In this document: positions 3,981 through 61,708 of the stretch, in pieces
How positions within the stretch are numbered: the first letter of the stretch is position 1
How the letters are laid out: the number at the start of each line of letters is the position of its first letter
IMG/VR virus record: IMGVR_UViG_3300032883_000564
Coordinates: 1 to 62,690 of that record
Strand: one strand, 5' to 3'
Length of the DNA stretch: 62,690 nucleotides
From: a virus
The notes under the pieces: model-generated
Told to the model about the DNA's origin: nothing
Seen by the model: the letters and a program-made list of their open reading frames with translations, nothing else
Database searches by the model: none
Translations under genes and position numbers: made by a program

Positions 3981-4000
3981 CGGGCAATCACCCCCGTCGC

Positions 4001-4354
4001 CTAGATCTTGCCCAGGACCTCCTCCGACTCGATGCCCGGGGGCGCCACGATATCGCCGCCATCGCTGGGCTCGGCGGCCTCAGCCAGAATGAGCGACTCG
4101 TGCCGGGAGCTGGCCACACGCAGGGCGCCCTGTACGTCCTCCACCTCGGCGACCAGGGGAACCCGGGCTGCGGCTATCTCAGCGTCGGCCTCGGCCAGCG
4201 CCGCCGTAGCCCTTACCACCAGCTCCTGCGCCTCAGCCAGGGCCGTCGCAGCCTCGACCCGCTGCGCCTCAACCTCCGCGATCTGCTCTCGCAGGGCGTC
4301 GCGCTGCGTGATCAGGTCGTGAATCTCGGCCTCCACCTTTTCGATTTCAGACAT
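4001..4354 (-). CDS. Coiled-coil protein ending in a fibre-repeat motif
   Basis: 117 aa. I chose the ATG at 4354 (MSEIEKVEAEIHDLITQRD) because GGAGG lies 8 bases upstream; an ATG two codons earlier is too close to it. Residues 1-85 are one long heptad coiled coil rich in Ala, Glu and Arg. The last residues, PPGIESEEVLGKI, match the repeat unit of the protein encoded at 1-1343. Probably a tail-fibre accessory or trimerisation protein; function unknown. Confidence 0.7.
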   Translation of the reverse strand: MSEIEKVEAEIHDLITQRDALREQIAEVEAQRVEAATALAEAQELVVRATAALAEADAEIAAARVPLVAEVEDVQGALRVASSRHESLILAEAAEPSDGGDIVAPPGIESEEVLGKI

Positions 4355-4727
4355 GCCCATTACCTCCAGGAGGCGGGCCGGTCCGCACAACGGGCGTCCC
4401 AAGCACCTCCTCAGACTTCACTCCACCAGGCATCTTCCGGCGGAGATCCGAGTTCCAGGCGGCCTCTTTGGCCGCTTCAGCCTGAATGTCGGGGTTGTCC
4501 GTCAGGCCAAACGGCGCTCCCGAGCGGAGCAGGATGGCCTGGTCAAACGCGATGCCGGCCGCCTTCTGGAACTCCTCGGCCTTTGCAGCCATCGTCCGTA
4601 GCGCAGTGGCGAGGTCCTTAGCTGCCTCCCATGGCATCTCCGTCACGCGGCCATTTATCTCAAGCAGGACGTGATGGGCCTGCTGGCCGACGTTCACCGT
4701 CGTTCGCTCAGGCAGAATCACAGGCAT
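4347..4727 (-). CDS. Hypothetical tail-region protein with a fibre-repeat motif near its C-terminus
   Basis: 126 aa, starting MPVILPERTTVN at the ATG after GGGAG. No recognised domain. The tail reads PGGVKSEEVLGTPVV, again the repeat signature of the protein at 1-1343. It overlaps the following coiled-coil gene by 8 bp. Together the pair suggests small proteins that contact, cap or share ancestry with the fibre repeats; this is inference. Confidence 0.65.
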   Translation of the reverse strand: MPVILPERTTVNVGQQAHHVLLEINGRVTEMPWEAAKDLATALRTMAAKAEEFQKAAGIAFDQAILLRSGAPFGLTDNPDIQAEAAKEAAWNSDLRRKMPGGVKSEEVLGTPVVRTGPPPGGNGHV

Positions 4728-4754
4728 GGTCACTCCCGCTAATGGCGGATATGC

Positions 4755-5177
4755 CTACAACTTAAATATCTTCGTGGCTGGCGTGTTGTCCCACTGTATA
4801 GTGATGTTGCCTCCGTTCGGCGTCACCGGGTTGCCGGTGAACGTGTCCCACAGCGCGAGCAGGATCGACGTGTTCTCGGTACCGGTGTGATAGTACAGCA
4901 GGATGAGCTCGCACGGGTCGCCGGTGACAGCCGTGAGCAGCGCGTCGTCAGCGTCGGCCACGCCGAGGACGTTCGTCTTCGTGGTCAGCGTTGCCCAGTT
5001 GGCGAGCGCAGCCGGAACACGCCCCGCTGCCGCCACGTCCGAGATGTACTCGTGGGTGTCGATCACCGGGGTGTAGTCAGCGGCGTCAACCAGCCCTGCC
5101 TTGATCGTCTGGCTCGCCCAGAGGATATCGCCGGCCAGGATGTGCTGCCGGCCCTTTCCGTAAAGCGCGTTGGCCAT
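4755..5177 (-). CDS. Phage tail-associated protein, MANALYGKG family
   Basis: 140 aa. The start at 5177 (MANALYGKGRQHILAGD) follows GGGAGGAGG with 6-base spacing. The order of an initial MANALYxKGR, then KAGLVDAADYTP and a late beta-rich part resembles a family I recall from many siphovirus tail clusters, with no firm function. It probably belongs to the virion or tail tip. No membrane segment or catalytic motif is visible. Confidence 0.75.
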   Translation of the reverse strand: MANALYGKGRQHILAGDILWASQTIKAGLVDAADYTPVIDTHEYISDVAAAGRVPAALANWATLTTKTNVLGVADADDALLTAVTGDPCELILLYYHTGTENTSILLALWDTFTGNPVTPNGGNITIQWDNTPATKIFKL

Positions 5178-5314
5178 CGTCAACCTCCTCCCGCTCTCGC
5201 GGGCGTTTCTCGCGGGTTCAGCAGTCCGAATGTACACGGGCAGCGTGGGGAACGCTAAGGGCACCTTGGCACCGAGTGTGATCGGAAGGCGCCAGCAGGT
5301 TCATCCCACGCGCG

Positions 5315-5800: not shown

Positions 5801-8260
5801 CTACGTTGCTACAATCGCCTGGACCGCTACCGTCCAGTCCACCCACACCTCGACGCGGCCCTTCGTGACACTGGTGATTTCGATTGTATGAATACCAGGG
5901 ACGACTACGCCGTCCGCGTCCTGAAGGTACTGGGTGATGTCCAAGAGGGCAGGCGCGTTCCAGCCGCTGCCGCCGCCTAGCGCTGCCGTCCTATCGGTTC
6001 CATCAATCTTCAGGTGCAGGTAGGTGGCGGTGTCCCCCTCGTAGATGCCCCAGCTGAGCCCATGCGTATGATTCCACGTTGCCACCATCTCCGATGAGCA
6101 TGGCGGACCCGAATACGCATAGGCGGCCGAAGCGGCGTCGTAGCTTCCCACCCAAACCCTCGTGAAGATCCCTCCGGGGAGGTTCCAAAATGACAGGAGG
6201 CGTTGGGTGTGGCTCGGGTCCCACGTGCCATCGTCGGCGCCAACCTCGAATATTGTGTGCCGGTGGTTTATATCCCCGACAGCCACGGAGTTGTCGTCCA
6301 TCCAGCTATTGGCTGCCGCTGCCGTCGCCGAGCACCGCATCGCCTTCGGCTTTAGCCGCAGCCGGCAACGCAGGAGCTGGGTCACATTGTCATCAATCAG
6401 GAGGTCGAATCCCAGGGGGTGCGTGGAATCCAAGTCCTGGAGGACCGGCCCGCTTGTGTAGTTGCTGACGCTCGTCTGGACGTGCGTGCGGAAGCTGCGA
6501 GCCGTGTCCTCCACCTTGCCGATCAGCACCTCGTCGGTCGTCTGCAGGGCCCGGTCCAGGTCGCTGACCACCAGCTCCGACGTCTCCGTACCGTCCTTCG
6601 CCCAACGGCGCGTCCGTTCCAGCACGTACAGGTCGTCGTCGACGTCCAGGTACACGTGCCCGCCGCTCGCGTGCTCCGCGTAGCCTCGCCAACGCAGGCG
6701 CACCGCGTCGCCTGGTATCAGGGAAGCGGGCAGACCCTTGGCCGTCAGGCGGTAGGCGCGCTGCTTATCCTTCCAGTACCAGGCCAGCTGGGCCGCCGCC
6801 AGGTCGTACAGGGCATTGGCAGCTACCTCCAGCGCAGCCCGGTTATTCGACAGCGGCGCGACGTCCTTGGCGACGAAGGCCCGCTCTCGCTGACCATAGG
6901 CAGCGATCGACGGGGCGTCGGCGATGAAGTACACGTCCTTGCCGTCCGGGCCAACCATGCTTTGGACAGCGTAGGGCGTTCTCCGCGTGCTGTAGCGAAG
7001 CGTCAGCTGGTCAACGCCATCGCCGGCACCAAGCGGTAGCACCCAATTCCAGATCTCGCTCGACGTCTCCTCGACGGAGAGGCTGTCGACTGCTGCCAGC
7101 TTCTCGTCGTCGAGCAGCAGCTCGTCAGGATACCCGCCCATCAGCGTGATGCCCGACGGCACCATCCCGAAGATGCCAGCCTCCAACCCCCTCACCAGGA
7201 CCCCGCCGCTTTCGCTGACGCGCTCCCGGAGGTGCAGCGCTTGCTGCCCGAGCGCATCGAGGATCGCCTTCAGCTTCGACTCACCATCGAACCGGGCCGT
7301 GATCGCGGCGGCCCGCCAGTCGGCGGAGGACGCGCAGAGCTGCATGCTGGCAGGCGACTCATACCAGGCGCCGACCTGCTGCCTCCCACCCTGCGCCTGG
7401 ACGCCCACGTGGGCGTGGACGGAGATGAAGTCGGTGACCACCTCGCTCGGCTGCGTCGGGACAACGAGAGCAGCAGTGCCGGCCACACCGGTAGCCGAGG
7501 CGAGCGCGCCGTAGGAGGCGCCGGCCGTGTCGACTCCCAGCCAGCTGCTGGCGCCGGCGCTCATGATCGCGGAGCCGCCAGCGAGCGTAACGGTGACGTT
7601 ATGAAGGCCGGCAGTCGGGTTGACGCGCGCCCACACTTCGAGAAGCGTGACGCCAGCCAGCAGGACGCTACCCACGTGAGTCAGCGCCTGCGACCCCCAG
7701 TAGACAGTGCTCACCGTACGCGTCGCGTGAAGAACCGACACGGCCACCAGCAGCAGCTTCCCGCCGGCAGCGACGGTGTGCGGCCAGATCAGCGACGCGG
7801 CGTTCGTGTTAGCGGAGCTACTGCTGTCCCGACTGATGCTGGATCCGGCCGCAGGCTTCAGAGAGAGGGCGCCGAGGGCCCAGCCCTCCTGCCCTGTCAG
7901 CTCCCAGGCGAGATCAAGCGTGGTCAGGCCCGGAACGAGCCGCGTCCAGCCGCCGGTGTCCAGCAGCAGGTCGTCGACGAGCGCGCCGAGCGGGGACACG
8001 GAGTACTGCCGGTTCAGCAGCGTGTTCTTGTACAGCAGCTCCTGGAGCAGCGTGGGGCCCGAGATCTCGAGCGTGTCTTCAGGCTGCTGCTTGCGGGTCT
8101 CGATCTGGCCGGCGAACGCGAGGCCCTCGCCCTCGACGTAGTGCTTCCAGATACGGCCAGGCAGAGCCTCGGCCGTGCGGGGATCGCTAAGCGGGAGCTG
8201 GACAGTGAAGTTGCCCGCGGAGTCAAGCTTGTGGGTGACCGAGGCGCTCTGGATGCTCAT
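5801..8260 (-). CDS. Tail hub / minor tail protein (Gp37-like) with inserted beta-sandwich domain
   Basis: 819 aa. The N-terminus (SVTHKLDSAGNFTVQLPLSD) and the following 100 residues resemble the Gp37-like minor tail proteins that form the hub below the tape measure. Residues about 150-310 are a Ser/Gly/Val-rich beta-sandwich (motifs TVAAGGKLLLVAVSV, VYWGSQALTHVGS) of a type I recall from secreted and phage surface proteins. Hub sequence then resumes, and the C-terminal 200 residues form another beta-rich domain that could bind sugars. The gene follows the distal-tail genes as expected for a baseplate component. Family assignment is by recall. Confidence 0.75.
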   Translation of the reverse strand: MSIQSASVTHKLDSAGNFTVQLPLSDPRTAEALPGRIWKHYVEGEGLAFAGQIETRKQQPEDTLEISGPTLLQELLYKNTLLNRQYSVSPLGALVDDLLLDTGGWTRLVPGLTTLDLAWELTGQEGWALGALSLKPAAGSSISRDSSSSANTNAASLIWPHTVAAGGKLLLVAVSVLHATRTVSTVYWGSQALTHVGSVLLAGVTLLEVWARVNPTAGLHNVTVTLAGGSAIMSAGASSWLGVDTAGASYGALASATGVAGTAALVVPTQPSEVVTDFISVHAHVGVQAQGGRQQVGAWYESPASMQLCASSADWRAAAITARFDGESKLKAILDALGQQALHLRERVSESGGVLVRGLEAGIFGMVPSGITLMGGYPDELLLDDEKLAAVDSLSVEETSSEIWNWVLPLGAGDGVDQLTLRYSTRRTPYAVQSMVGPDGKDVYFIADAPSIAAYGQRERAFVAKDVAPLSNNRAALEVAANALYDLAAAQLAWYWKDKQRAYRLTAKGLPASLIPGDAVRLRWRGYAEHASGGHVYLDVDDDLYVLERTRRWAKDGTETSELVVSDLDRALQTTDEVLIGKVEDTARSFRTHVQTSVSNYTSGPVLQDLDSTHPLGFDLLIDDNVTQLLRCRLRLKPKAMRCSATAAAANSWMDDNSVAVGDINHRHTIFEVGADDGTWDPSHTQRLLSFWNLPGGIFTRVWVGSYDAASAAYAYSGPPCSSEMVATWNHTHGLSWGIYEGDTATYLHLKIDGTDRTAALGGGSGWNAPALLDITQYLQDADGVVVPGIHTIEITSVTKGRVEVWVDWTVAVQAIVAT

Positions 8261-8283: not shown

Positions 8284-8292
8284 GCGATCACC

Positions 8293-8805
8293 ATGAGTGA
8301 GCGCTGGATGCCAATCGAGGGGTATGAGAGCCTCTACAAGATTTCGGACCGGGGCCAGATTTACAGCGTTCGCCGACAGCGGCTCCGTCGCCCTTTTCAA
8401 GCCGGTGGATATCTCGTTGTAAGGCTCCATAGTCAGGGTAGGCGGCAAGCCTTCCTGGTCAGCCGACTTGTTGCTGCGGCGTTTCTCGGGCCTCCCCTCG
8501 CTGGCCAGGAAGCCAATCACCTGAGCGGCGATAAGGCCGACAACCGAGTTGAGAATCTGGCGTGGGTTTCGCCGTCTGGAAATGTACTCCACGCTCTTGC
8601 AACGGGACTCTCTCAGCCAGCGTCTCCCCCACGCAATGATAATCGCGGGGCGAGGAACGGCAGAGCCAAACTGTCTGAGGCCGACGTGCTGGACATCAGA
8701 AGTCTGCGCGGCAAAGTCCGGCTGGACGATCTCGCACAGAGATATGGTGTGGCAAGAGTTACGGTCTCGCAGATTATGGGCCGAAAACGCTGGCGTCATC
8801 TCTAG
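8293..8805 (+). CDS. HNH homing endonuclease (NUMOD4-HNH)
   Basis: 170 aa, starting MSERWMPIEGYESLYKISD. The first 40 residues are a NUMOD4 DNA-binding module (W-x-P-I-x-G-Y-E-x-L-Y). An HNH_3 nuclease follows, with N-H-L-S-G-D-K-A-D-N-R-V-E-N-L and W-V-S-P-S-G-N. The C-terminus (LDDLAQRYGVARVTVSQIM) is a helix-turn-helix. It sits alone on the plus strand between two minus-strand tail genes, ending 4 bp from the convergent gene, as expected of a free-standing mobile endonuclease inserted in an operon. A second member of the same family is at 40574-41149. Confidence 0.9.
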   Translation: MSERWMPIEGYESLYKISDRGQIYSVRRQRLRRPFQAGGYLVVRLHSQGRRQAFLVSRLVAAAFLGPPLAGQEANHLSGDKADNRVENLAWVSPSGNVLHALATGLSQPASPPRNDNRGARNGRAKLSEADVLDIRSLRGKVRLDDLAQRYGVARVTVSQIMGRKRWRHL

Positions 8806-8809
8806 TCCC

Positions 8810-9394
8810 TTAAGGTATGATCTGCCCTTTCACGGCCCCAGCCGCGTCCACGATCGCGGCCCGGTGGCGCGCAACCCCACCAAGCTCGTAGTACACCGTC
8901 AGGTAAACGTGATTGACCAAGGCCGTATGCGCCCCACCGATGACGGGATCTGAAGTCGCGCTAATAGCGATCCCAAACCCCGAATCTATGTCCCCGGGTC
9001 CCCACTGTTCACCCCACAGCTCCTCCGGTCCACCGTAGGACTTGTAGGCGCCGAGGGCTGGCGACGTGCCCCACACCGTCACCAAGTCTGCCATCTCGGT
9101 TGCCCCAATGACGCCGCCCTTCACGATCCGGATGCGGTAGTCGCGAACAGGGTTGTTGAACTGGCGACGCTTGACGCGGGCCGAGATGCCGCGTACCACC
9201 GCATTACCAGGCACCACAAGACCGAAAGCCGTCAGCTTCAGGTAGTGGGTTATCACGCTAGCACCAAAGATCGGCGCCGCCGCGAAGTTGGCGTCCTCCA
9301 CCTTGGCGTAGTCCATCAAGATCCAGGCGACCGTCCCCACAGAGGCGTCGTCGGCAACTGTGCCCGGGCTCAGGGGACCTAGCGCACGGCTCAT
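8810..9394 (-). CDS. Tail-region structural protein, 194 aa
   Basis: Starts MSRALGPLSPGTVADDASVG and is beta rich throughout, with no catalytic motif or membrane segment. Similar-looking proteins near distal-tail genes are usually annotated as hypothetical virion proteins. It starts 3 bp after the stop of the distal-tail gene. The HNH gene at 8293-8805 separates it from the hub gene. Confidence 0.7.
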   Translation of the reverse strand: MSRALGPLSPGTVADDASVGTVAWILMDYAKVEDANFAAAPIFGASVITHYLKLTAFGLVVPGNAVVRGISARVKRRQFNNPVRDYRIRIVKGGVIGATEMADLVTVWGTSPALGAYKSYGGPEELWGEQWGPGDIDSGFGIAISATSDPVIGGAHTALVNHVYLTVYYELGGVARHRAAIVDAAGAVKGQIIP

Positions 9395-9397
9395 CGT

Positions 9398-10345
9398 CTA
9401 CGCCATGTGCGAGTGGAGCAACCAGACGTACAGCTTGAGGTTTGGCGTCCCAGCGTCCGTATAGCGCATGCTATTGGTGCCCGGCTGCAGCTCCATCAGG
9501 ACGGCCTGCGTGGCACCGAGCGCCAGGTTCGGCGTCTCGTCAGCCCACGAATACCCGCCGTCCGTGCTCAGGCGAGCTCGACCGAGGCCCGGGGCTGCGT
9601 TCACCGACAGGACGTGGTTCGCCGTGGCGCCGGTTCCGGTGACCTGGAACTGGGCACCTGTCGTCAGGTTCTCGATCTTCGGATTCGTGAAGCCGTTCAC
9701 GGCCTGGCTGGCAAAGCGGAAGACGACGCGTTGGCTCTCAAGGTCGCCGTCGTTGATCAGGTTGAAGGCGTAGCCATCAGGCGGGGCCGCGCTCGTGATC
9801 GTAAAGACGGCGAACGTGTAGTCGGGAGCGATCGGTTCGCCGACAACCGCTGCCGCCAGAGCCTCGGCCGTATAGCTGTGCGCCGTGAGCCACTCCGCCG
9901 TCAGCGGCGCGAAGAAGTGCGGGTCCGGAAGCCGGAAGTCGAGTGAGACGGGCAGGTGGATCGCGTTCTCCCTGTTCCTCTGAAGCGGCGGCCTCGCCGC
10001 GAGGCGGGCATAACTCCACCGCTGATCGCCGCCCGTGAACGGGTCATACCGCCAGAGCTTTCGCAGGCCGTCTACCCGAGCTGCACCGCAGGCAGCCAGG
10101 AGCATCGCGCGGTACAGAGCGTCGAAGTCGGCCACGGAGTCGGCGTACAGCGCGAAGCCGATCCTGGCCTCACCAACCGCCATCGGCGGCCGGCCAACAC
10201 CATGAAGGTCGAAGGCTCCATCCGCGCCAAGGGCTTCCTGAAGAGCCAGGCGGTACGGGACCCCGAGATCCTCTTCGCGCTCCAGCGTCGGGATCTCCCA
10301 CGGGTTCAGGTCGTCCAGATCCGTCAGCTTCCAGAAGCGCCTCAC
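9398..10345 (-). CDS. Distal tail protein-like (Dit-type)
   Basis: 315 aa. It overlaps the tape-measure stop by 4 bp (ATGA-type). Position between the tape measure and the hub is where Dit proteins lie in siphoviruses. The N-terminal half (WEIPTLEREEDLGVPYRL ... RLPDPHFFA) fits the Dit ring domain with the conserved P-D-P-x-F near its end. The C-terminal half is a beta-rich galectin-like region. The role would be the ring joining the tail tube to the tip. Confidence 0.7.
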   Translation of the reverse strand: MRRFWKLTDLDDLNPWEIPTLEREEDLGVPYRLALQEALGADGAFDLHGVGRPPMAVGEARIGFALYADSVADFDALYRAMLLAACGAARVDGLRKLWRYDPFTGGDQRWSYARLAARPPLQRNRENAIHLPVSLDFRLPDPHFFAPLTAEWLTAHSYTAEALAAAVVGEPIAPDYTFAVFTITSAAPPDGYAFNLINDGDLESQRVVFRFASQAVNGFTNPKIENLTTGAQFQVTGTGATANHVLSVNAAPGLGRARLSTDGGYSWADETPNLALGATQAVLMELQPGTNSMRYTDAGTPNLKLYVWLLHSHMA

Positions 10346-13300
10346 GGTATCACTCCTTTGGCACGCAGCGCCTGCACGAAGACCCGGCTGGCCACCTCAC
10401 CCACCTGGCGACCGACGTCCGCTGGCTGGCCGGTAGCCGCGACGACGTTCACGGTCAGGTCAACGTCGATCACGTTTGCCCGACCACCAGACGCTCCGCC
10501 GGCCAGAGACAGGAGCCGCTCCGTGTCGCCGTGCGAAAACACTCGCGTGTTCGGCGGAGCGTAGATCAGCTCAGTCCCTTGCTCACCGACCAGGCTGAAG
10601 CCGCTCGTGATTCCACCACTTTGAAATCCCTGCGGGATCTGGAGGCTGTTCAGAACCCAGGCCGCGTGGCCGGCTGCGTCGCCGAGATTCCAGGTCTTGG
10701 GGCCGGCATAGTTCATCGCGTCGCCCACGCCACGCGTCAAGCCCTGCGCGTAGTCAGCTGAGCCGGCCAGGGCGAGGTTCTTGTCGGTCACAGTGCCGGC
10801 CGAATCCCCGAGCTTCCGCGTAAAGAAGCCCAGGTAATCCGTGGCGCCACCAATCACGCCGCTCATGGTGTCGGTCTGCTTCACCGCGTTCGCAGTAGCC
10901 AGCGTGTGGATGCCTGTGGCCCAGGTAAGGTCGTTGACCTTCCCTGAGTAGATTCCGATGTTGGTCGTGATCGTCGCCACCATGTCTTTGAGCTCGCGCT
11001 CTGTCGGCAGCGTCTGGTCTGCCAGCGTCGCCCGATCCTGCATGACGCGATGCTCGGCGGTGTAGACAGCCTGCTGCGCCTGGAGCGCGGCGATCTGGTC
11101 CCGGATGCCCTGGGTCTGTTCCTGCGTCGCGCCAGCGGCCTCTTGAAGCGCCAACTGGTACTGAAGCGTGTCGATCGACAGCTGCAGGTTCGCGGTCTCC
11201 ACCGTCGGGCCGCTGAGGAGCTGACCAAGGGCGCTCTGAAGCGAGCTGACCAGCTCGGTGCCGACGCCGTATGCGAATTGGGCGGCCGCATCCCGGCCTT
11301 CACCGAAGCTCGTATTGACCTCCTGCATCGCCAGTTCGAAGTCGAGCGCCTTCCGCCCCAGGCCATCAACTCCAAGCTCGAGGCCGAGGTTGTACAGCTC
11401 ACGCACGCCGGCCTGCGCATAGCCCGGGATGTCCTGGAGCTGCACCGCGAACAGGCCGATATCGACCATCACGCCCCAGATGCTCTGCTTCAGGGCCTCG
11501 TGGGCCGCGATCTCGTCAGAGAACGCCTGGATGGCCGCGCCCTGTGCCGGCGCCAAGCCAAGCTTCAGGGTCTCAGCAAGGTTCAGCGTGCCCTCATTCG
11601 CCAGCTTCGCCGCCTCCCAGAAACGCCCAGCCTCCACCGTCCCGTAGGACTGCTTCAGCTTTTCCTGCTCGACTGCATAGCGATTTGCGGCCTCCGCGGC
11701 GTCCTTCTCCGCCTGGGTGCGGGCGTTCACCAGCTCCAGCTGGGCTTGCTGGGCGGGGTTCAGGTTCGCTCGGACCGCCTCAGCGAGCGATATCACGCCG
11801 TCGTCGAGGAACTTCCCCAGCTCGGTGTTCAGGGCCTCGGTGTCGCCCTTAGCAGCGGCCATCAGGACGGTGAAGCCCAAGAGGGCGGGGGTAACACCAG
11901 CATCGATGCAGGCGTAGAACAGTTTGAGAAGGTCAATCTGGTTCCGCCACGCCTTCTCGCCGGTAGTCAGCTCTGCAGTCGTAGCCGCCATCTCGAAGCG
12001 GGCTGCGGCCCAGGCGGGGATACCGTTGGCCGTGGCCTCGGCCAGGGTGATGGTGCCGTCGGCCAGGATGTCGACGACTTCCTTGGCCTTCTCGGACGCT
12101 CCGCCGGCGCCAGACACGGCGCCCTGGAAGTCGGAGACGCCCTTCGTGGCAGGCAGCGTGGCCGCGGCCAGCTGACCGAACTGGGTCAGCATCTTGTTGA
12201 TGTAGTCGCCAGCGATGCCCGGTACTTGGGTCACCATGGTCGGCATGTTGAACTTCGCTACGGCGAACGCGATGGGAATGGTGACGCCGGACGCCAGCAT
12301 GTCCATGAAGCGAACGATCTGGTTGGCCGCGAGGGCGTCGAGCAGCGGCAGGACCTGGATCATCATCTCCGTGGGCATCGCGAACAGCTGCTTAGTGATC
12401 GCCTCAATCTTGGCGGAGGCATCCGGGCCAAGTGCCTCGAACAGCCGCTGGCCCAAGATCTTCATCTCGTCCGACACGTCGGTCAGGTACTTGCCCATCG
12501 CGTCGAGCCTGGCGTTGACAGCGTCAAGCTCGCCTGCGGGCGCAGCCTTACCCAGCGCCTCCAGCTCGTTCTTGCGCCTTTCCAGCTGTAGCTGCTCGAG
12601 AGACAGGCCCAGCTTCGCGATGACGACGTCGGACAGGTTCGTGACGGCAGTCCCGACGCTCTTCACGTCGGTCAGGTAGGCCGCGAAGTCATCTGCGGCC
12701 CTTTGGCTGGCGCCGCCGGTGGCGTCGAGACCAGCCGCCAGCAGGATCAGCGCGCCGGGCAGCTGCGCAAGGTGCAGTATGGAACCGCCCAGCACTTCGT
12801 CGAACTTCTTCACCTCCGGGTGAAGCGCCAGGAAGTCGCTTGCCATCTTTTCAAGCTGCGGGTTCAGGTACTCGGCCAGCGCCGGAACCTGCGCGATGAT
12901 GTCCCGGAGCTCAGCCATCGTGGGGTTTGTCGCCATGACCTGGTCGGCGAGCAGCTTCATACGCTGCGTCAGGGCGTCGTAGATGTCGCTACGGAAAGCG
13001 CCCGGCAGCGAGGCGGCCAGGCGGTCAGCCTCGTCCTTCATCTGCCCAGCCAGGCCAATCCAGTACTGCATGACAGCCGCGTGCGCCTGCTCGGCCGTCA
13101 TGCCCTCCTTGGTAGCCTCGGTCAGCAGGTCGGTGGCGCTGCCGACGTCCTTTATCGCAGAGGCTGTGTTCTTCGCATCATTCTGCGTACCCCTGAACAA
13201 GGAGATGATCCCGGCACCAGTGAATTTCCTCGCGACCTGATCGAGGGCAACCAAGGCACCTACCACGAGCGCAATTGGTCCCAGCGTCGTGGCCATAGCA

Positions 13301-23216: not shown

Positions 23217-24269
23217 CTACGGCGGCGTGGCACTAGCGAGCGCCTCCACTCCTGCGGGCAATTCCTTGACAGGGATGCGCAGCCCGCGGCCCATGATCGA
23301 GAAGCCGCGCAACTCGCCGCTCTCCACCTGCCGCCACACCTCCTCGTCCATGACCTTGACGGACATGACCCAGTCGCCGGCGCCCACGGGCTGGTCACCC
23401 AGCTCGAAGTCCACCGGCGCCTGGTAGCACTCCACCACGCGCAAGAGAGGGTTGACGACCTCGTTGTGCATCACGTCGAGCTGTTGGAAGGCGATCATGT
23501 ACTTCTCCATCGCCTTCCAGATCTCGTCCGGCTCGACATAGTCGTCCTGGTAGTCGACGGTGTTGGCCGCCAGGACATGACCTGTGACGACGCGCCGCTC
23601 GCTGTTTATCTTCAGGATGGGGGCGAAGACCGACCAGCGTCCGTCATCCTCGACCTTCAGAACAGGACGCATCTCGGGAGCCACGCGCTTCCCCTGGGCC
23701 TGCCCGAGTTGATCGAGGACGGAGCGCACGTGGCCGATGGCCTGCTCAGCCGCGTCGATGGCGTTGCGGAGCGTCTCCTCGTTCTTCGCCGAGAGGACGC
23801 GTCCTTCCTTGGACAGCCCGTCGCCGTCTGCCTTCTGCTGCTTCCAGGGGGGAGTGCGCGAAAACTGCTCATAGTGTCGGGCCAAATGTGCCTTGACCCC
23901 GTCGAGGTCGCCGGAGGCGCCGACCACTTGATCCATACGCCCGGCGGCTGCGGAGAGCCCATCGAGCACCACCGCGCCTTGCCCGGACTTTGCAGCCTCA
24001 TGGTGCGGAAGCTTCAGGTCGCCGAAACTGTCAGCGATCCCATCGCCGTCGGCGTCGCCGAACCAGGCGAAGTGCTTCGTGATGCGCTTCTTCTCGGCGT
24101 CGCTCAGGTCCGCCCAGGTACTATCGGTGAAATCGCTTAGGTTCGGCTTCGACCAGGCCGTGTCCTCGGGCGCCTTAGCGGTCTCGTGGGTGGGCACGGC
24201 GCCCTTGGCGAGGTCCTCACGCTCTAGCAGGGCCAGCAGGTTCTTCAGGGCCTCGCGCAGTTCAGTCAT
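23217..24269 (-). CDS. Prohead serine protease, XkdF-like
   Basis: 350 aa. The C-terminal half (from about residue 185) shows the XkdF family pattern: VFAPILKINSERRVVTGHVL, then LDVMHNE with the likely catalytic His, APVDFELGD, and SGELRGFSIMGRG with the likely nucleophile Ser. The N-terminal 130 residues are a separate helical part (YEQFSRTPPWKQQ) perhaps for prohead targeting. It precedes scaffold and capsid genes, as maturation proteases do. Family recognition by recall is good; the catalytic pair is inferred. Confidence 0.75.
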   Translation of the reverse strand: MTELREALKNLLALLEREDLAKGAVPTHETAKAPEDTAWSKPNLSDFTDSTWADLSDAEKKRITKHFAWFGDADGDGIADSFGDLKLPHHEAAKSGQGAVVLDGLSAAAGRMDQVVGASGDLDGVKAHLARHYEQFSRTPPWKQQKADGDGLSKEGRVLSAKNEETLRNAIDAAEQAIGHVRSVLDQLGQAQGKRVAPEMRPVLKVEDDGRWSVFAPILKINSERRVVTGHVLAANTVDYQDDYVEPDEIWKAMEKYMIAFQQLDVMHNEVVNPLLRVVECYQAPVDFELGDQPVGAGDWVMSVKVMDEEVWRQVESGELRGFSIMGRGLRIPVKELPAGVEALASATPP

Positions 24270-24490
24270 TCCTCACCTGTCTCGCTCAACATCTCCCGCA
24301 ACTGGCGGCGCAGCGACGGCGACAGGCCCGAGCCTAGGGCGCCCTTCACGATCTCGGCGATGCCGATCCGGTTCTCGTGGTGCTCGCCGTGGTGTCTCGT
24401 GCCCACCAGTACGCTGTCTCCATCGACGATCAGCACCGGCGTCCGGCAGCGCGGCTGACTACACAGGAGCGTCGTGCGCTGGCCGGCCAT
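24266..24490 (-). CDS. Small Cys-containing protein, 74 aa
   Basis: ATG at 24490 (MAGQRTTLLCSQPRCRTPVL); a TTG nine bases earlier is an alternative. A C-x-x-x-x-C pair near the N-terminus and a His-rich segment (RHHGEHHENR) could bind zinc. Overlaps both neighbours. Function unknown. Confidence 0.5.
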   Translation of the reverse strand: MAGQRTTLLCSQPRCRTPVLIVDGDSVLVGTRHHGEHHENRIGIAEIVKGALGSGLSPSLRRQLREMLSETGEE

Positions 24491-24854
24491 CAGGACCAAA
24501 GGTCTGCTCCACCTGTTCCGGGAAGGCGCCGCGCGACGCCTCGCGGGCTTCCTCCTGGCTGATCTCCGGGTACAGGCTGCTCATGACGCCAGGGTCACGG
24601 CAGATAGCAGCGCGCAGCACCTTCAGGCGACTGCGCGTCATGCCCGGTATCGCCAGCAACTCCGCGTCCGTCCGCTCGTCCAGCATCTGGGCGCTCACGG
24701 TACGAAGCCCTCCGCCCAGCTCAATCTGATACCAGGGCCACCCCTTGCGGATGACCTCGCGGAGCGACTCGGGGATGTTCAGCTCTTCTAAGTACATGCT
24801 GCTGTCAGGGCCGGGCTTCTGGACCGTCCGATTGATGATGGCCGGAAACGGCAT
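24459..24854 (-). CDS. Hypothetical protein with helix-hairpin-helix-like segment
   Basis: 131 aa, good RBS (GGAGGTGTACGG before ATG). The segment ELLAIPGMTRSRLKVLRAAI at residues about 65-85 resembles a helix-hairpin-helix, a non-specific DNA-binding element. Between head-protein and protease genes; role unknown. Confidence 0.6.
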   Translation of the reverse strand: MPFPAIINRTVQKPGPDSSMYLEELNIPESLREVIRKGWPWYQIELGGGLRTVSAQMLDERTDAELLAIPGMTRSRLKVLRAAICRDPGVMSSLYPEISQEEAREASRGAFPEQVEQTFGPDGRPAHDAPV

Positions 24855-24920: not shown

Positions 24921-25301
24921 TCACCCGGCGCCAGCCTTCTTTGTCTCGCAGAACCCACCAGCACTCGGCGACGCAGGCGGCACAGACCGACGAAAGAGGC
25001 CCCATACCCAGCGGCCGCCGAAGATTGTCCGCAGGAGGACGACCACGGCCCGGGCCTTGAAGGGCCGGCAGGAGAAGACGTCGGCATATCCCTGCGAGTC
25101 GTGAATAGCGATGGCTATATGCGATTCGGCGATGAGCACGAAGCCCTGCCCGTACTCCTCGGAGATGCAGGCTGGGGCTATCTTTGTTAGGCCGGTGAGA
25201 AGCCGGGCACGCAGAAGGAAGCGGGCGATGTCCCCCTGCTGGCAGGTTACGCCCTCGCCGTTGGCGATTAGATGATAGCCTCGAATCGTTGTCTTCCCCA
25301 C
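24921..25301 (-). CDS. SpeD-like pyruvoyl decarboxylase (AdoMet decarboxylase family)
   Basis: 126 aa, starting at GTG 25301 directly after the TGA of the minor-head gene. GYHLIANGEGV near the N-terminus matches the strand that opens bacterial SpeD, and GFVLIAESHIAIAIHDSQ with DVFSCRP matches its core. In SpeD the chain self-cleaves at Glu-Ser of the A-E-S-H motif to form the pyruvoyl cofactor, and the later His and Cys act in processing and catalysis; all three types are present here. The protein would thus make a decarboxylated amine for polyamine synthesis (AdoMet decarboxylase, or another substrate as in some diverged SpeD proteins). It has a C-terminal extension (FRRSVPPASPSAGG). Finding it in a capsid operon is unusual; the substrate is unknown. 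Confidence 0.7.
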   Translation of the reverse strand: MGKTTIRGYHLIANGEGVTCQQGDIARFLLRARLLTGLTKIAPACISEEYGQGFVLIAESHIAIAIHDSQGYADVFSCRPFKARAVVVLLRTIFGGRWVWGLFRRSVPPASPSAGGFCETKKAGAG

Positions 25302-26027
25302 TCACGCCGCCTCCTCCAGGTCGCCGCCGAGCCAGGGCGACTCAGGTCGGTCGGCCTCGTCATACTCGACTTCTAGCGAATGAGAGCAGTTCACATGCAG
25401 CGGAAGTGACCAAGTGTAGCCCTCCTCCAGCGACACCCAGTCCTCGGCGACCAGGTCCTCGCAGTCAGGGCAGACCGCATCCTGGGGATCGACCCTGGCC
25501 CGTCCCGTGAGCTCGTTGTGGTAGATGAAGTCTACCTGGGCGTAGTTGCGCGCCGTGCCGAGTTCGGTGGCACTGATGCCCGGCAGTTGCTTCTGCCAGC
25601 GTGCGGCGTCCCAGTCAGATAGCCTTTTCAGGTAGGTGGACCTATTGGCCGTGGCTACGTCTTCCCCGATGCGAGCGATCTGCCGGCGCATCTCGGCGTT
25701 GTACGTGTCGCTGATGCTGCTCGCCGCGAACTGGGCCCGGCCGCGCAGGTCGCCGAGCACCATCGGGTCCGTCAACTTGAGGGTGCCAGCGAGGTCATAG
25801 CCCGCCACCCGCGCCTCCTGGAGGATGGCCGCGCCGAAGTCGCTCGTTGCCTGCTCAAAGAGTTCCTCTGTGAGGAGGTCGGTGTAGCTCGGGCCGACGC
25901 TGAAGGCCTCGTAGACCATCTGTTGGACCGCCGTGAGCTGCTGCTTGGCCACCGGGGCGGGATAGGCGAGCGAGAGGATGGCGCTCTTCGCCTTGCAGTA
26001 CCCCTCAGGGCTTCCGAAAGGCAACAT
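25302..26027 (-). CDS. Minor head protein (SPP1 gp7-like)
   Basis: 241 aa. Start at 26027 (MLPFGSPEGYCKAKSAIL) in a TGATG overlap with the upstream zinc-ribbon gene. The long helical N-terminal part and the C-terminal motif CPDCEDLVAEDW ... TWSLPLHVNCSHSLEVE are typical of the phage Mu F / SPP1 gp7 head morphogenesis family, where Cys and His bind a metal. Position after the portal agrees. Confidence 0.8.
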   Translation of the reverse strand: MLPFGSPEGYCKAKSAILSLAYPAPVAKQQLTAVQQMVYEAFSVGPSYTDLLTEELFEQATSDFGAAILQEARVAGYDLAGTLKLTDPMVLGDLRGRAQFAASSISDTYNAEMRRQIARIGEDVATANRSTYLKRLSDWDAARWQKQLPGISATELGTARNYAQVDFIYHNELTGRARVDPQDAVCPDCEDLVAEDWVSLEEGYTWSLPLHVNCSHSLEVEYDEADRPESPWLGGDLEEAA

Positions 26028-26227
26028 CACAACTGCTTGCCGCAGTACCGGCAGCTCGGCGGCCCATTCTGGTACGTCATCTGCCAGCGCCCGCAGTGAC
26101 CGCACTTGACCGACCGAGCGTAGCTTCCGCCCAGCGGCGACGGTGCCTCCGGCCCACGAGGTGCCACCGGCGGGCTGGCTTGCCGCCCCGCCCGGGCCGC
26201 TCTTCCCTCAGCCCAGCGCTTGCCCAA
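26027..26227 (-). CDS. Zinc-ribbon protein, 66 aa
   Basis: TTG start at 26227 with AGGAGG six bases upstream. The C-terminus holds a C-x-x-C pair (KCGHCGRWQ) and a second (CRYCGKQL) about 15 residues later, a small zinc ribbon. Coupled to the minor-head gene by TGATG. Confidence 0.6.
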   Translation of the reverse strand: MGKRWAEGRAARAGRQASPPVAPRGPEAPSPLGGSYARSVKCGHCGRWQMTYQNGPPSCRYCGKQL

Positions 26228-26474
26228 CTTCGACCTCCTGCCTGGCTACCGCTCCTCCGCTTGTGGCAGCGCCCGAAGCTTGGGTCGACGACCCGGCTTG
26301 CCGGGCCCGTTCGGCCTCTGTGTCAGCAGCCGCTCTCCGTTGAGCACCTTCCGGCCCTTTGTGATTCCCTCCGGGCCGGCGCGGCTGCCGGTAGCCGCAC
26401 TGAAGGCAGAAGTCCTCGTTCTCGGAGATGTCCAGGGCCATCTGACCCCTCTGGCAGCGAAGACACCCTCTCAT
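26208..26474 (-). CDS. Zinc-ribbon protein, 88 aa
   Basis: Start in a TGATG overlap with the portal stop. Residues 1-30 hold two knuckles (MRGCLRCQRG and FCLQCGYRQP); the remainder is a disordered Ala/Gly/Glu tail. It forms a tandem with the next small zinc-ribbon gene. This resembles Com-type zinc proteins in size only. Confidence 0.6.
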   Translation of the reverse strand: MRGCLRCQRGQMALDISENEDFCLQCGYRQPRRPGGNHKGPEGAQRRAAADTEAERARQAGSSTQASGAATSGGAVARQEVEVGQALG

Positions 26475-28171
26475 CAGAGTCCCGGTATGTCCGCCTCCCT
26501 CAAGGCGCCAAGGCGCTCCTCGCGCATCTTCGAGGTCAGCTTCGTCAGCCGCTTCAGCCTGTCCTTGTAGCGCTCGCCAGCCCAGGCAGGGAGCTTCTCT
26601 GCGAAGTCAGCTTTCTCGACGTTCAGGAGGCCGTCGAAGAACGCGCGCACGGCCTCGGCGTCGGGGCCCAACTCTGCGAGTCTGGCACCTATCGTCTCCA
26701 GGACGTCGGGGGGCAGGACTGCGGAGCGGAACGGGCGGGGTGGCGCCTCTCCCTTAGCAACCCGCATCGCGAAGCGCTTCCAGCGCCGCAGCTCGTCGAG
26801 TTCGGCCTGCGAATCTCCGGGCGCCCGGAGATCTCCACGCTTCTTCGTCGCCTCGCCCACCACCTGAGAGTTCGACGGCATGTAGTAGCGCTCGCCACCG
26901 GAATAGCCGGGTTGGCCGTGCTTGGCCCGCTCCTCGTTCGGATTGCTCAAGCCGTACTGGACACGACGGACAGCATTCGTCGTCTCCGTCGTGTCATCGC
27001 CAAACGCAGGCCGGCGGAAGCGGAAGAGCCAGTTGTGGATGCCCAGTCCCTTGAACCACAGGTTCATCGTCTCTTCGACCGGCTCTTGAAGCGGGCGGGA
27101 CTCCTGGCGATATACGATTTCGATGAGCTGTCCGAGGGTACTCCTGTTTATGTCCTCCACGGCGCCAAGGACCCCGGCGGGCGTGCCGATGATGCCAAGC
27201 ATCTCATCGCGGTTGAACTTGCGACCCCTGAGGTACTCCTGGTCGCGGCCGAAGGCTTGGCCGAAGGACTTGTACTCGGTCAGGCCCTGGATCGCTGCGA
27301 ACGCCTTGTTAGCGTTCTCCACGCCGCCATAGAGGTTATCCAGGGTCTCGCGGTTCTCCCGCATGATGTCCTCGCTGAGATCGGGGCCAAAGACAAAGGC
27401 GCCGGGCGGAGTCCGGTTGTTCTTGAACGTATTACGATTCCAGACCTGGGAGTAGAGGTCAGTAGTTGCGGCCATTTCCAGGGACTCCAGGTCGGAGACA
27501 CCCAGGCGGCCATCCACGTCAGGGATCTCGAAGCGGATCACCTCGTCCTGCGCGAACGGCTGGCGCCCGCCAGGCATGATCTGAACGTAGGCCTCGTCGC
27601 GGTTCAGGAACTGGCCGAAGCGGTCCACCCTGGGAATCACGGCCCCGAACATCACCTGAAAGTCAATGATGTCATCGAAGCCGTTACGAACAACTTCCCA
27701 GTAGACCTCCGAGAGGAGCTTGAGGCGGGCAAAGGTGACGTAGAACTTCTGCTTGGGCAGGCTCCACTGCCTGATGTTGACGACGTCGCCGATCTCCGGC
27801 TCAAAGAACGCCGTGAGGAACGCCAGCTCCTCGTCGGCGCTGGCGTCCTGCTCTTGCTCGGAGGGCACGAACTCCCAGCCCTCCGAGACGGAGATGTGGG
27901 CGATGCGGCGGATGCCGGCCCGGACCCAGGACTCGCGGCGCCAGAGGCCGAGCAACTCCTGGCGGCTGACGTAGGGGCTGCCAATGCCGGCCCCGCCAAC
28001 CAGGCCAGCAAGACCGGTCGTGCCTGGCAACATGCCGGAGCGGATGCGCGGCTGGTCCTTCTCGCTCTTCTCGACGGAGGCTTGCTGGTGGTGAGAGTCG
28101 GGGACCCAGATGGAGACTTCAGCCACGGCTACACCCAGACCTTGCAGCGGGACAGACCGTAGAGCGGACAA
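26474..28171 (-). CDS. Portal protein
   Basis: 565 aa from a TTG at 28171; a GTG at 28126 is an alternative start. The central region fits the HK97-type phage portal family: RESWVRAGIRRIAHISVSEGW, then DEVIRFEIPDVDGRLGVSDLE and TPAGVLGAVEDINRSTLGQ. It forms the dodecameric DNA gate and lies between terminase and minor head genes. One dispersed palindrome (26812-26833) lies in its C-terminal part. Confidence 0.85.
   Translation of the reverse strand: MSALRSVPLQGLGVAVAEVSIWVPDSHHQQASVEKSEKDQPRIRSGMLPGTTGLAGLVGGAGIGSPYVSRQELLGLWRRESWVRAGIRRIAHISVSEGWEFVPSEQEQDASADEELAFLTAFFEPEIGDVVNIRQWSLPKQKFYVTFARLKLLSEVYWEVVRNGFDDIIDFQVMFGAVIPRVDRFGQFLNRDEAYVQIMPGGRQPFAQDEVIRFEIPDVDGRLGVSDLESLEMAATTDLYSQVWNRNTFKNNRTPPGAFVFGPDLSEDIMRENRETLDNLYGGVENANKAFAAIQGLTEYKSFGQAFGRDQEYLRGRKFNRDEMLGIIGTPAGVLGAVEDINRSTLGQLIEIVYRQESRPLQEPVEETMNLWFKGLGIHNWLFRFRRPAFGDDTTETTNAVRRVQYGLSNPNEERAKHGQPGYSGGERYYMPSNSQVVGEATKKRGDLRAPGDSQAELDELRRWKRFAMRVAKGEAPPRPFRSAVLPPDVLETIGARLAELGPDAEAVRAFFDGLLNVEKADFAEKLPAWAGERYKDRLKRLTKLTSKMREERLGALREADIPGL
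26812..26833. repeat. Dispersed palindrome, copy 2
   Basis: Core TCCGGGCGCCCGGA, perfectly symmetric and flanked by AATC and GATC, inside the portal gene. Confidence 0.7.
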
Positions 28172-32059: not shown

Positions 32060-32579
32060 GACTACTGTGGCAGGGGCCCACAAAGGCAATGAGGGAATTA
32101 ACGACTTGCGGCGCCAGGCCGAGGGCGAGAAGCTGCTGCTTCAGAACCATGTTCGGGTTCAGGTTGAAGGCCGGACGGTCTACCAGAACGCCACGGGCAT
32201 GGGCGATATCGTCAGCCGCCGCACTGGCCACGGCCAGGAAGCGGGCACGGTCGCCATCCTTGATGCTGGGGTTCTCGGCCAGGGCCATCGCCTGATTGAG
32301 GACCAGCCGCTTGGTCGCGATGTAGTCGACTATCGCGCTGGCACCGGAGACGGCGGAACCCGCCCCGCTGAGTTCTTCGATGGCCTCTCGCCGAACGATC
32401 TCTAGGTCCTCGCGGATGATGTCCTCAAGGGCTGTCTCGCCTTCGACCAGGGCGGGGGCCTGGGCCTTTAGCGTCGCGATGATCGTGGGGATTGATGATC
32501 CTATGAGGTCAAGGCGCCGGACGTGGTGGCGGCGCTCCGCTATCTTGTCGGCTGGGAGCGGGGCAGTCTGCTCACCCAC
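32013..32579 (-). CDS. HTH protein, possible small terminase subunit
   Basis: 188 aa from GTG 32579 with AGGAGG six bases upstream. The N-terminus (ERRHHVRRLDLIGSSIPTII) looks like a recognition helix-turn-helix; the rest is helical. Overlaps the methyltransferase stop by 8 bp. Confidence 0.55.
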   Translation of the reverse strand: MGEQTAPLPADKIAERRHHVRRLDLIGSSIPTIIATLKAQAPALVEGETALEDIIREDLEIVRREAIEELSGAGSAVSGASAIVDYIATKRLVLNQAMALAENPSIKDGDRARFLAVASAAADDIAHARGVLVDRPAFNLNPNMVLKQQLLALGLAPQVVNSLIAFVGPCHSSLRAVWPASSCSSATP

Positions 32580-33744
32580 GCTGCGCCTCCTGGCCTGTGA
32601 ACTGCTCCCAGCGCTTGACCGCCACGTCAACGTAGCGCGGCTCGATCTCCATCCCGTAGCACCGCCGGCCCAGGCGTTCGCAGGCGATCATGGTGGTGCC
32701 GGAGCCGAGGAAGGGGTCAACCACAAGACCGCCGTGCGGACTACTGTTGCCGACGGCTCGGTCACAGAGCGCAACCGGCTTCTGGGTGGGGTGAAGATCG
32801 TTCTTGCTTAGCCGAGGATATTCCCAGAGCGTGACCTCGTTCTTGCTGCCACCCCAATAAGCACGCGGTCGCGTCGCGTAGAAGATCGGTTCATGCTGCT
32901 GATGGTAGCGAGCGCCGAGGTTCCCGAACTGCGCCTGCTGCTTCGCCCAGATGATGATAGCCGATGGCGTAAAGCCAGCCGCGAGAAGGGCTGCCTCCGT
33001 ATGTCTGGCACGCAGACCGGCGTGCCAGACATACGCCGACGCGTTTTCCGTCCAGGGCACCACCTTCAGGAAAGACAGAACACCTGCGTCCGTATCACCT
33101 GCCAATGTCTCCCGCCGCTTGGTGCCTCCGTCGTAATCCACGCCGTAGGGTGGATCGGTAACGCACAGACCTGCCTTCTCCCCCGCCATCAGCCGCTCGA
33201 CATCCTCCGCCTTCGTGCTGTCGCCGCACAGCAGGCGGTGGTCGCCGCAGACCCAGAGGTCACCCGCCTTGCTGATAGGTTCGGATACCTCTGGCACAGC
33301 GTCGGGGTCGGTCAGCCCAGGCTTGGGCTGCATGTAGAGCCGCAGTTCCCCCTCCGTGAACCCCGTCAGGCTCAGGTCCGCTCCGGCCAGCCGCAGGCCG
33401 TCCGTCACCAGCGCCAGCTTGCTCTCGTCCCAGCGGCCCGCGATGCGGTTCAGGGCCACGTTCAAGAGCAGGGCATCTATCTCAGAGACATCGACCTCCA
33501 CCACGGGCACGGTCTCTATGCCGAGTTCAACCGCCGCCGCGATCCGCTGGTGCCCGCCGATCACCTCGCCATTCTCACGCCGCACGATGATGGGGTCGAC
33601 GAACCCCCACTTGGCGAGCGACCGCTTCAGCGCCGCCATCTCCTCGGGCGGCATGAGGCGCGGGTTCTGCTCGTTCAGGTTGAGGCTTGCGGGGTCGACG
33701 TAGCGGATCTGGAGCGGGCCGTTAGCCTTCGTCATCGCAGCCAT
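32572..33744 (-). CDS. ParB-domain / DNA methyltransferase fusion
   Basis: 390 aa; ATG 33744 (MAAMTKANGPLQIRYVD). Residues 10-110 are a ParB N-terminal-like domain (DPIIVRRENGEVIGGHQRIAAA). Residues 160-385 are an amino-methyltransferase of the beta class: DPPYGVDYDGG (catalytic motif IV) precedes DPFLGSGTTMIACERLG (AdoMet-binding motif I), with HPTQKPVAL between. It methylates adenine N6 or cytosine N4, probably to protect phage DNA from restriction. This fusion is common in phages. Confidence 0.9.
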   Translation of the reverse strand: MAAMTKANGPLQIRYVDPASLNLNEQNPRLMPPEEMAALKRSLAKWGFVDPIIVRRENGEVIGGHQRIAAAVELGIETVPVVEVDVSEIDALLLNVALNRIAGRWDESKLALVTDGLRLAGADLSLTGFTEGELRLYMQPKPGLTDPDAVPEVSEPISKAGDLWVCGDHRLLCGDSTKAEDVERLMAGEKAGLCVTDPPYGVDYDGGTKRRETLAGDTDAGVLSFLKVVPWTENASAYVWHAGLRARHTEAALLAAGFTPSAIIIWAKQQAQFGNLGARYHQQHEPIFYATRPRAYWGGSKNEVTLWEYPRLSKNDLHPTQKPVALCDRAVGNSSPHGGLVVDPFLGSGTTMIACERLGRRCYGMEIEPRYVDVAVKRWEQFTGQEAQRG

Positions 33745-33769
33745 CTTGCCCCGGGGGGGCCTGGGAATC

Positions 33770-34042
33770 CTAGAGTCTGCTGGCGCAGAACTCAGGCTCC
33801 GCCGCCGCCACCTCCTCGGGGAACACCATCGTGATCCGCCCATCACTCAGGCGCATCACGTCGATGCCGATACCGCAGGTCAGGCAGCCACAGTTGCAGA
33901 CCTCAACGATGTCGCCAGGCCTGAGCGGGTACGGCTCCGGGCCCCAATCCTCGAACACCTCGTCAGGGTTGTAGCCCAGAAAGCGGAGACGCTGGCCGGG
34001 GAGGTTCTTGAGGCTGCCGCACCCGCAGGCGCCGGTGCTCAA
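33770..34042 (-). CDS. Hypothetical protein with Cys motifs, 90 aa
   Basis: TTG start (34042) overlaps the upstream stop (TTGA). Contains ACGCGSLKN at the N-terminus and VCNCGCLTCG in the middle, possible zinc ligands, and a small beta fold (RPGDIVEVC). Function unknown. Confidence 0.6.
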   Translation of the reverse strand: MSTGACGCGSLKNLPGQRLRFLGYNPDEVFEDWGPEPYPLRPGDIVEVCNCGCLTCGIGIDVMRLSDGRITMVFPEEVAAAEPEFCASRL

Positions 34043-58382: not shown

Positions 58383-59666
58383 CTAGCCTCCCGTCACCAC
58401 GGGCGGCTTGTTGCCCACGGCGTTCTGCCTCAGAAGCTCCCAGGCGCGAGCCAGATCGACCAGGGGCGCGGTCGGCTGCAGCTGCTGGCCCAGCACCTTC
58501 CAGACCTCGCCTGATAGGTAGCCGAACTCTCGGTTGGCGCGGGTCAATAGCTCGCCCAGCGTCTTCGGCGGCTTCTTGTCCGGCATCAGCATGGCCTGCC
58601 GGGGCTCCGGGTCGGCCGCCTCAGATCTTCGGGCGCTCGGAGATCCCGCCTCAACCGGCGGCTCAGCCGGCACCTCAACCGCCTCGCTCTCGATGGGCTC
58701 GTGCTTCTGGCAGTAGGCGTTGCCGTCCTGGTCGTACACCTCCACCGGGCCACCACAGACGATGCAGGCGTCGTCAGAAGCGGAGGCCGGCCCAGGCGAG
58801 ACGGACGAATCGACCGGGCCAGCCTCCACGCTTCCCTGCGGCTCTAGGCCGCCTCCCTGCCCGTCTTCGCTCTCTTCCTCGGCGTACACCTCCGCGAGTT
58901 CGTCTTCGTCGATCGCCGGCGGCGCCAGGAGCGCCTTCTCCGGGAGCGACTGAGCGGCGCGCAACAGGTCCTCGATGGTGAAGCCTGGCAGGCTCAACTC
59001 CAAGACATGTACCGTCTTCTTCTTGACGTTGGGCGGCGCCACCTCGCGGGGTACGAGGCGAAGTTGCAGCGGCAGGCCGCGGATGCGCCCGCCGGTCACG
59101 GAACGGATCAAGGCCACGCTGTCGAGAAGCGCTCGCACACCGTGGATCGACCGGGTGTCCAGTTGCCAGGCGCCTATGCCCCTCACCTTCGGAAGCAGGA
59201 AGAAGAAGTTGAGTGAGAGCCGGCACTGCGGTCTCTCGCCGCTCTGCATCGGGCAAAGCTCTGCGGCGCATGGGATCGTGCGCGGCACCCAGGCCTGAGT
59301 GTGTTTGTTTGCCCATGTGCCGGCGTCAAGGCCCTGCGGACGGGGCCCGTCCTGGTTCGGGTCCCATTTGGCTTCGGCCACTTCGCCGTCGCCTCGACAC
59401 ACCGCCTTCCAGGACTGGCTGAACATCCGATAGAACGGGTCACACCAGTCCTCGACGTCGTCCGTCGGCAGCATGATGTCCAGCTCGCGGGGTTCGGTCT
59501 TGTAGACCTCCAGGAACGCCTCGACCGCCGAGCGGGACGTGCTGCTGTCCTCGCGAACACAGAAGTGATCGAGGGCGTGCGGCACGCCCCTCTCGTCACG
59601 GTAGCCCAGGCGTACCTTGCCGATGCGCGGGAGCCTTCTTCGGTCTGTGAGCCCCTTGACTGCCAT
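58383..59666 (-). CDS. Gp3-like protein of the recombination-directionality-factor family
   Basis: 427 aa. The start MAVKGLTDRRRLPRIGKVRL, KTEPRELDIMLPTDD and the later FFFLLPKVRGIGAWQLDTRS fit the Gp3-like family, which includes the phiRv1/Bxb1-type factors that turn serine integrases towards excision; many members are annotated only as hydrolase or metal-binding. The second half has a zinc motif (CIVCGGPVE ... YCQKHEP) and an acidic linker. No serine integrase lies in the window. The exact role remains unproven. Confidence 0.7.
   Translation of the reverse strand: MAVKGLTDRRRLPRIGKVRLGYRDERGVPHALDHFCVREDSSTSRSAVEAFLEVYKTEPRELDIMLPTDDVEDWCDPFYRMFSQSWKAVCRGDGEVAEAKWDPNQDGPRPQGLDAGTWANKHTQAWVPRTIPCAAELCPMQSGERPQCRLSLNFFFLLPKVRGIGAWQLDTRSIHGVRALLDSVALIRSVTGGRIRGLPLQLRLVPREVAPPNVKKKTVHVLELSLPGFTIEDLLRAAQSLPEKALLAPPAIDEDELAEVYAEEESEDGQGGGLEPQGSVEAGPVDSSVSPGPASASDDACIVCGGPVEVYDQDGNAYCQKHEPIESEAVEVPAEPPVEAGSPSARRSEAADPEPRQAMLMPDKKPPKTLGELLTRANREFGYLSGEVWKVLGQQLQPTAPLVDLARAWELLRQNAVGNKPPVVTGG
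58623..58645. repeat. Dispersed palindrome, copy 6
   Basis: Core TTCGGGCGCTCGGA with AGATC on both sides, in the Gp3-like gene; read in a different codon frame from the other coding copies. Confidence 0.65.
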
Positions 59667-61606: not shown

Positions 61607-61634
61607 CCCTCGCAGAGGGCGCGGTTGGTCCGAA

Positions 61635-61660: not shown

Positions 61661-61708
61661 TGTTCGTGCAGCGCGGCGCCCGGCCGGCCTGCTGGCCTGG
61701 GGGCCGCG

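Follow-up and report, generated by a model that had tools for sequence, protein, structure and literature searches.

A viral record from IMG/VR, analysed here over its full length of 62.7 kb (hereafter, the window), carries a small SpeD-like gene in the midst of its head genes, which raises the question of whether this gene provides polyamines that neutralise packaged DNA, as originally predicted, or whether the SpeD fold has been put to another use. The predicted open reading frame proved to be real and lies on the minus strand, which the original prediction had not specified; its GTG start at 25301 directly follows the TGA that ends the upstream gene (25304-25302) (Table 1). A chance open reading frame was ruled out by the conservation of the frame in four phages and by the fold of the product. 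Pfam and PHROG matches to a portal protein, an XkdF-type protease, a major head protein, and a terminase in the surroundings of the gene corroborated its predicted position amid head genes. The adjacency to the upstream stop codon had also been described correctly; however, the product of that upstream gene (25302-26105) has no match in Pfam or PHROG, and it is labelled a minor head protein because of its location and a C-terminal Cys/His motif.

Table 1. Positions of the SpeD-like gene, its conserved motifs, and its neighbours in the window.
Feature	Position	Strand	Basis or remark
SpeD-like CDS, 126 aa, GTG start	24921..25301	minus	ORF; PF02675 26.2 bits (gathering cut-off 25); AlphaFold pLDDT 88; VIA Z 14.0 to 1tlu
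Shine-Dalgarno-like GGAGGAGG	25310..25317	minus	8 nt before GTG, within the end of the upstream gene; from sequence
Upstream neighbour, putative minor head protein	25302..26105	minus	Adjoins the SpeD-like gene also in L002, L003, and L009
Downstream neighbour, helix-hairpin-helix-like protein (by eye)	24459..24854	minus	79-89% conserved
Portal protein (context)	26474..28171	minus	PF04860, E 5e-22
Prohead protease, XkdF type (context)	23217..24269	minus	PF14550, E 3.5e-24
AESH, residues 58-61	25119..25130	minus	Ser60 corresponds to T. maritima Ser63 (pyruvoyl precursor), Glu59 to Glu62
FSC, residues 76-78	25068..25076	minus	Cys78 corresponds to T. maritima Cys83
Ala65 in the catalytic His68 column	25107..25109	minus	Alignment of 37 viral homologues
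His67, two residues beyond the His68 column (+7)	25101..25103	minus	Alignment; common to L053, not to L052, L002, or L003

The best profile for the window protein was Pfam PF02675 (AdoMet_dc; E 1.1e-5), and weaker matches were obtained to the PHROG 'S-adenosylmethionine decarboxylase' (E 1e-3) and to PDB 2iii (E 0.009). The SpeD fold, on which the original prediction had been made to depend, was present: Foldseek ranked Thermotoga maritima SpeD (1vr7, E 7e-6) first for the AlphaFold model, and a VIA comparison aligned the model with 1tlu, also T. maritima SpeD, over 105 residues at 1.9 A with a Z score of 14.0; the Z score for A. aeolicus 2iii was 13.2, and both enzymes are similar to the window protein in size. 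Supplying AlphaFold with an alignment of the phage clade only gave a pLDDT of 87 and left the strand order unchanged. We are therefore sure of the family and fold, and the window gene is a homologue of SpeD, the class 1b AdoMet decarboxylase. The AESH processing motif was found as predicted, and the GYHLIAN and VFSC motifs were present in part as described: the former occupies residues 8-14 rather than the very start, and the FSC of the latter is followed by 48 further residues rather than marking the end of the protein.

As a query on its own, the window protein recovered no close relative in IMG/VR or phage records, and its relatives were reached through the portal and through alignments. 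Five phages are related to the window by portal and terminase (L002, L003, L004, L009, and L015); in three of them (L002, L003, and L009), the corresponding slot holds an in-frame SpeD-like gene that shares 40-46% identity with that of the window, and the contigs of L004 and L015 stop short of that slot. Scanning IMG/VR for the SpeD family yielded 27 viral loci, among them the clade member L039 and L043, which is L009 once more. A final IMG/VR scan contributed L052 and L053, which are nearer to the window, as well as L055/L056, L057, and L058, which are farther from it. In a maximum-likelihood tree of 37 rows, the window protein, L002, L003, L009, L039, L052, L053, L056, L057, and L058 formed one clade (support 100/99), in which L053 and L052 are nearest to the window protein (68-74% identical over the aligned part); L002, L003, L052, and L053 score under the PF02675 cut-off. 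This phage clade is derived from prokaryotic class 1b SpeD. Two scans of a bacterial and archaeal genome collection with the portal and terminase alignments returned no relative.

Inspection of the active centre, numbered here after T. maritima in an alignment of 37 viral homologues, revealed both retention and loss. Ser63 and Cys83 are conserved in all 37 proteins, and every one of the ten clade members also has Glu62 and His64, so the Glu62-Ser63-His64 and Cys83 columns are common to the window protein and to the class 1b enzymes 1tlu and 2iii; Glu59, Ser60, His61, and Cys78 (window numbering) are among the 10 of 95 gap-free columns that are invariant across the clade. His68, in contrast, is present in 32 of the 37 homologues and replaced in five, all within the clade, by Ala (window, L052, and L053), Trp (L002), or Gly (L003). 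The five clade sisters of these His-less forms retain it, as do all viral homologues examined outside the clade, a set that does not include pelagiphage HTVC201P. Parsimony requires at least two changes for these losses, and a single loss stays compatible with the data (AU p 0.106). The HTWPE-like substrate segment that follows His68 is absent from all ten clade members, and the hairpin after Ser63 is two residues shorter in seven of them; in the window protein, which differs from class 1b SpeD in lacking its WPEYG-like loop, AIHDSQG takes the place of the HTWPE loop with two residues fewer. No Ser or Thr was found in the clade at the place of Ser55 (GV[ST]G motif), in a column that borders a gap. 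The column of the proline rule for bona fide AdoMet decarboxylases (PMC10407285) was read off the alignment. The missing AdoMet loop bears out the caution, voiced from the outset, that the protein need not act on AdoMet.

The loss of His68 and of the substrate loop and the apparent lack of a Ser55 equivalent suggest that the window protein most likely lacks the standard pyruvoyl cofactor and does not act as an AdoMet decarboxylase. Judged from these residues, it very likely does not decarboxylate AdoMet, and by analogy with mutant enzymes it likely does not form pyruvoyl. In human AdoMetDC, the H243A mutation, which corresponds to His68, slows activation and stalls it at an ester that hydroxylamine cleaves, the second step needing the His, and S229A blocks activation; in the T. 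maritima enzyme, self-processing persists in S55A, probably via Glu62, which is able to serve as a general base (PMC3975893). Since Glu62, Ser63, His64, and Cys83 are kept, the protein may still undergo the first self-processing step, in which Glu62 would act as the base for an N-to-O acyl shift that gives an ester, or it may remain an unprocessed proenzyme. For the window protein, the analogy would predict that an ester is possible and pyruvoyl unlikely.

The same conserved residues could instead belong to a working pyruvoyl-dependent amino-acid decarboxylase acting on arginine, ornithine, or a new substrate, with a rebuilt proton relay in which, for example, His67 or His61 replaces His68; we regard this as possible, although rather doubtful. 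The invariance of Glu59, Ser60, His61, and Cys78 and the purifying selection on the gene would fit such an enzyme, but the other 32 homologues all have His68, and no His occupies position +7 in L002, L003, or L052. The segment that probably carries the SpeDC diagnostic residues (Gln, Thr, Phe, and Tyr) also appears different in the window protein, and the QLIETSS.T.HF pattern of L033, L045, and L046 is absent from it. A precedent exists in the SpeDA and SpeDC phage homologues (pelagiphage HTVC201P, a Lake Baikal phage, and others), for which arginine or ornithine decarboxylase activity is established (PMC9992855, PMC10407285); like the window protein, they are small, phage-borne, and not expected to use AdoMet, but their activities have been demonstrated, whereas the window protein is known from sequence and a model. 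The idea that His67 is a shifted His68 was set aside: the sequences can be aligned here without a gap, and no His occurs at this place in L052, L002, or L003.

Neither a spermidine synthase (PF01564) nor an arginase/agmatinase (PF00491) was found in the record of the window or in eight related records (L002, L009, L039, L052, L053, L056, L057, and L058), which are possibly fragments, with the record of L003 outside the search; both families were detected in Microcystis phage MaAM05, which served as the control. Pfam scans of forty window ORFs disclosed no further polyamine gene. The absence of partner genes from the records searched thus counts against a rebuilt decarboxylase and, together with the replacement of the catalytic His by Ala, leaves unsupported the original proposal of a working enzyme whose polyamines neutralise packaged DNA. 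Despite the SpeD fold and the place within the head cluster, we consider that proposal very improbable, all the more since the clade is not bound to head modules.

Examination of the ten gene contexts revealed how loose the tie to head genes is. Four copies (window, L002, L003, and L009) are flanked by the putative minor head gene on one side and the helix-hairpin-helix-like gene on the other, and that of L056 lies between an HK97-gp10-like gene and a tail-completion/terminator gene. The other half of the clade (L039, L052, L053, L057, and L058) is situated within or adjoining lysis genes: the L039 copy directly before a glycoside-hydrolase-25 endolysin, the L052 copy after an Amidase_2 endolysin, and the L057 copy with a membrane protein before it and an Amidase_2 endolysin downstream of it. 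The copies of L053 and L058 adjoin proteins that resemble each other (6798-7775 and 8286-9251, respectively), with short membrane-spanning ORFs nearby; these two proteins have no Pfam or PHROG match and are called endolysins by resemblance and position only, the holin and endolysin labels at both loci having been assigned by eye. Taken together, these positions suggest that the clade genes are expressed late. Among published work linking AdoMet decarboxylase with holin and endolysin, the search returned a single phage paper, on Pseudomonas phage JG004. In Thermus phage phiYS40 (L050, 1303-3174), a known SpeD is separated from the portal by one gene, a precedent for SpeD near head genes.

A virion or assembly component reusing the SpeD fold would account for the slot between the putative minor head and helix-hairpin-helix-like genes, which is fixed in four related phages, and for the position of the L056 copy; nevertheless, we judge it improbable, given the five clade members in or beside lysis genes and the exchange of alleles. 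In the phages that share the slot with the window, the portal, putative minor head, terminase, and helix-hairpin-helix-like neighbours are 72-92% identical and the protease and scaffold-like genes 52-76% identical, against the 40-46% of the SpeD-like copies. The SpeD-like gene rejects the grouping of the core genes, in which the window, L002, and L009 stand apart from L003 (AU p 2e-13), which points to allele exchange. Furthermore, when the fetched loci of L052, L053, L039, L056, L057, and L058 were compared with 14 other structural proteins of the window, the sole match was the L056 protease, which indicates transfer of the SpeD-like gene among dissimilar phages.

Rapid divergence and the loss of an essential residue might also be expected if only the His68-bearing members were enzymes and the His-less ones were decaying relics of an accessory enzyme, since, within the window group, the SpeD-like gene has a higher rate of evolution than the adjoining head genes. 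The ratios of dN/dS (Nei-Gojobori), approximate in these pairs as dS is near saturation, were 0.23 for the window and L052, 0.20 for the window and L053, 0.18 for L052 and L053, and 0.28 for L002 and L003, and the reading frames are intact; the same Ala, moreover, occurs in three phages. The occurrence of the Ala form in two unrelated phages (L052 and L053), combined with a dN/dS of about 0.2, argues that these genes are not debris, and a pseudogene was discarded as the leading idea on the strength of dN/dS. The His-less forms look maintained, with a conserved active-centre motif, and we give decay little credence.

Several other features of these genomes were recorded. Unlike the window copy, the putative minor head protein of L002 (9929-11641, plus strand) is interrupted at HVN|C by an intein-like insert; inside it, an ORF of 245 aa on the opposite strand (10769-11506) looks like a homing-type endonuclease. 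The terminase large subunit of L009 (3632-6292, plus strand) is interrupted in frame by some 350 residues that run from CLPGYQRVITPDG to LLVGN and look like an intein, and two LAGLIDADG homing endonuclease-like ORFs (9829-10320 and 11828-12271, plus strand) flank its minor head and SpeD-like genes. In L003, the SpeD-like gene (8973-9503, plus strand) ends in an in-frame fusion with a short Cys-containing segment, MKPYILNKT...CRWCWP, which in L009 follows the SpeD-like gene as a separate ORF (about 11590-11760); none was seen after the window copy. Elsewhere in the window, a ParB N-terminal domain is fused to an N6/N4 DNA methylase (32572-33846, minus strand), a recombination directionality factor-like gene lies near the right end (58383-59666), and the LysM/peptidase M23 and metallo-beta-lactamase-fold genes at the right end (60392-62350) may represent the host flank of a prophage.

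The reading we favour, tentatively and at a little under an even chance as a whole, is that late modules carry a mobile accessory protein with the SpeD fold, which lacks a standard pyruvoyl cofactor, does not decarboxylate AdoMet, and works by binding, perhaps in a prozyme-like manner. It might, for instance, form a dimer with the SpeD or an amino-acid decarboxylase of the host and thereby alter it, as the trypanosome prozyme does. The prozyme of T. brucei is a catalytically dead SpeD-fold partner (PMC5201418) and, like the window protein, lacks key active-site residues; however, it is eukaryotic and unprocessed and acts through its dimer partner, whereas the phage protein keeps Ser and Cys, its partner is hypothetical, and nothing ties it to a host SpeD. 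The active-centre residues are, moreover, the most conserved part of the protein, which is also compatible with retained catalysis, and five sister proteins retain His68, both of which weigh against an arrested, binding form. The clade likewise differs from cyanophage speD, which is phage-borne and of the same family but often adjoins the sliding clamp rather than head or lysis modules, and from the SpeD of Microcystis phage MaAM05 (L017), which sits in a polyamine operon (speD-speD-speE-speB). In the annotated MaAM05 cluster (2483-5261), which comprises two SpeD homologues, speE, and speB, the second SpeD may, by pathway logic, be an arginine decarboxylase.

A more specific proposal, which we think unlikely as it stands, is that this phage SpeD lineage kept Glu-Ser-His and Cys, dropped the His that makes pyruvoyl, and now uses the arrested form, an ester or a proenzyme, for a new role late in infection, such as prozyme-like control of host polyamine enzymes. 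Phages with SpeD homologues are already known; what is new is a clade located in late modules in which some members lack the His, and no report of it was found in the part of the literature that was searched. The usual annotation of SpeD homologues in phages is that of a polyamine enzyme, yet in this clade a residue thought to be essential has been lost in some members while selection continues, and the genes travel via head, connector, and lysis modules. The occurrence of forms with His68 (L009) and without it (window, L002, and L003) in the same slot makes the role of a SpeD fold without pyruvoyl chemistry directly testable, and it cautions that the family name alone is insufficient for calling such genes auxiliary metabolic genes.
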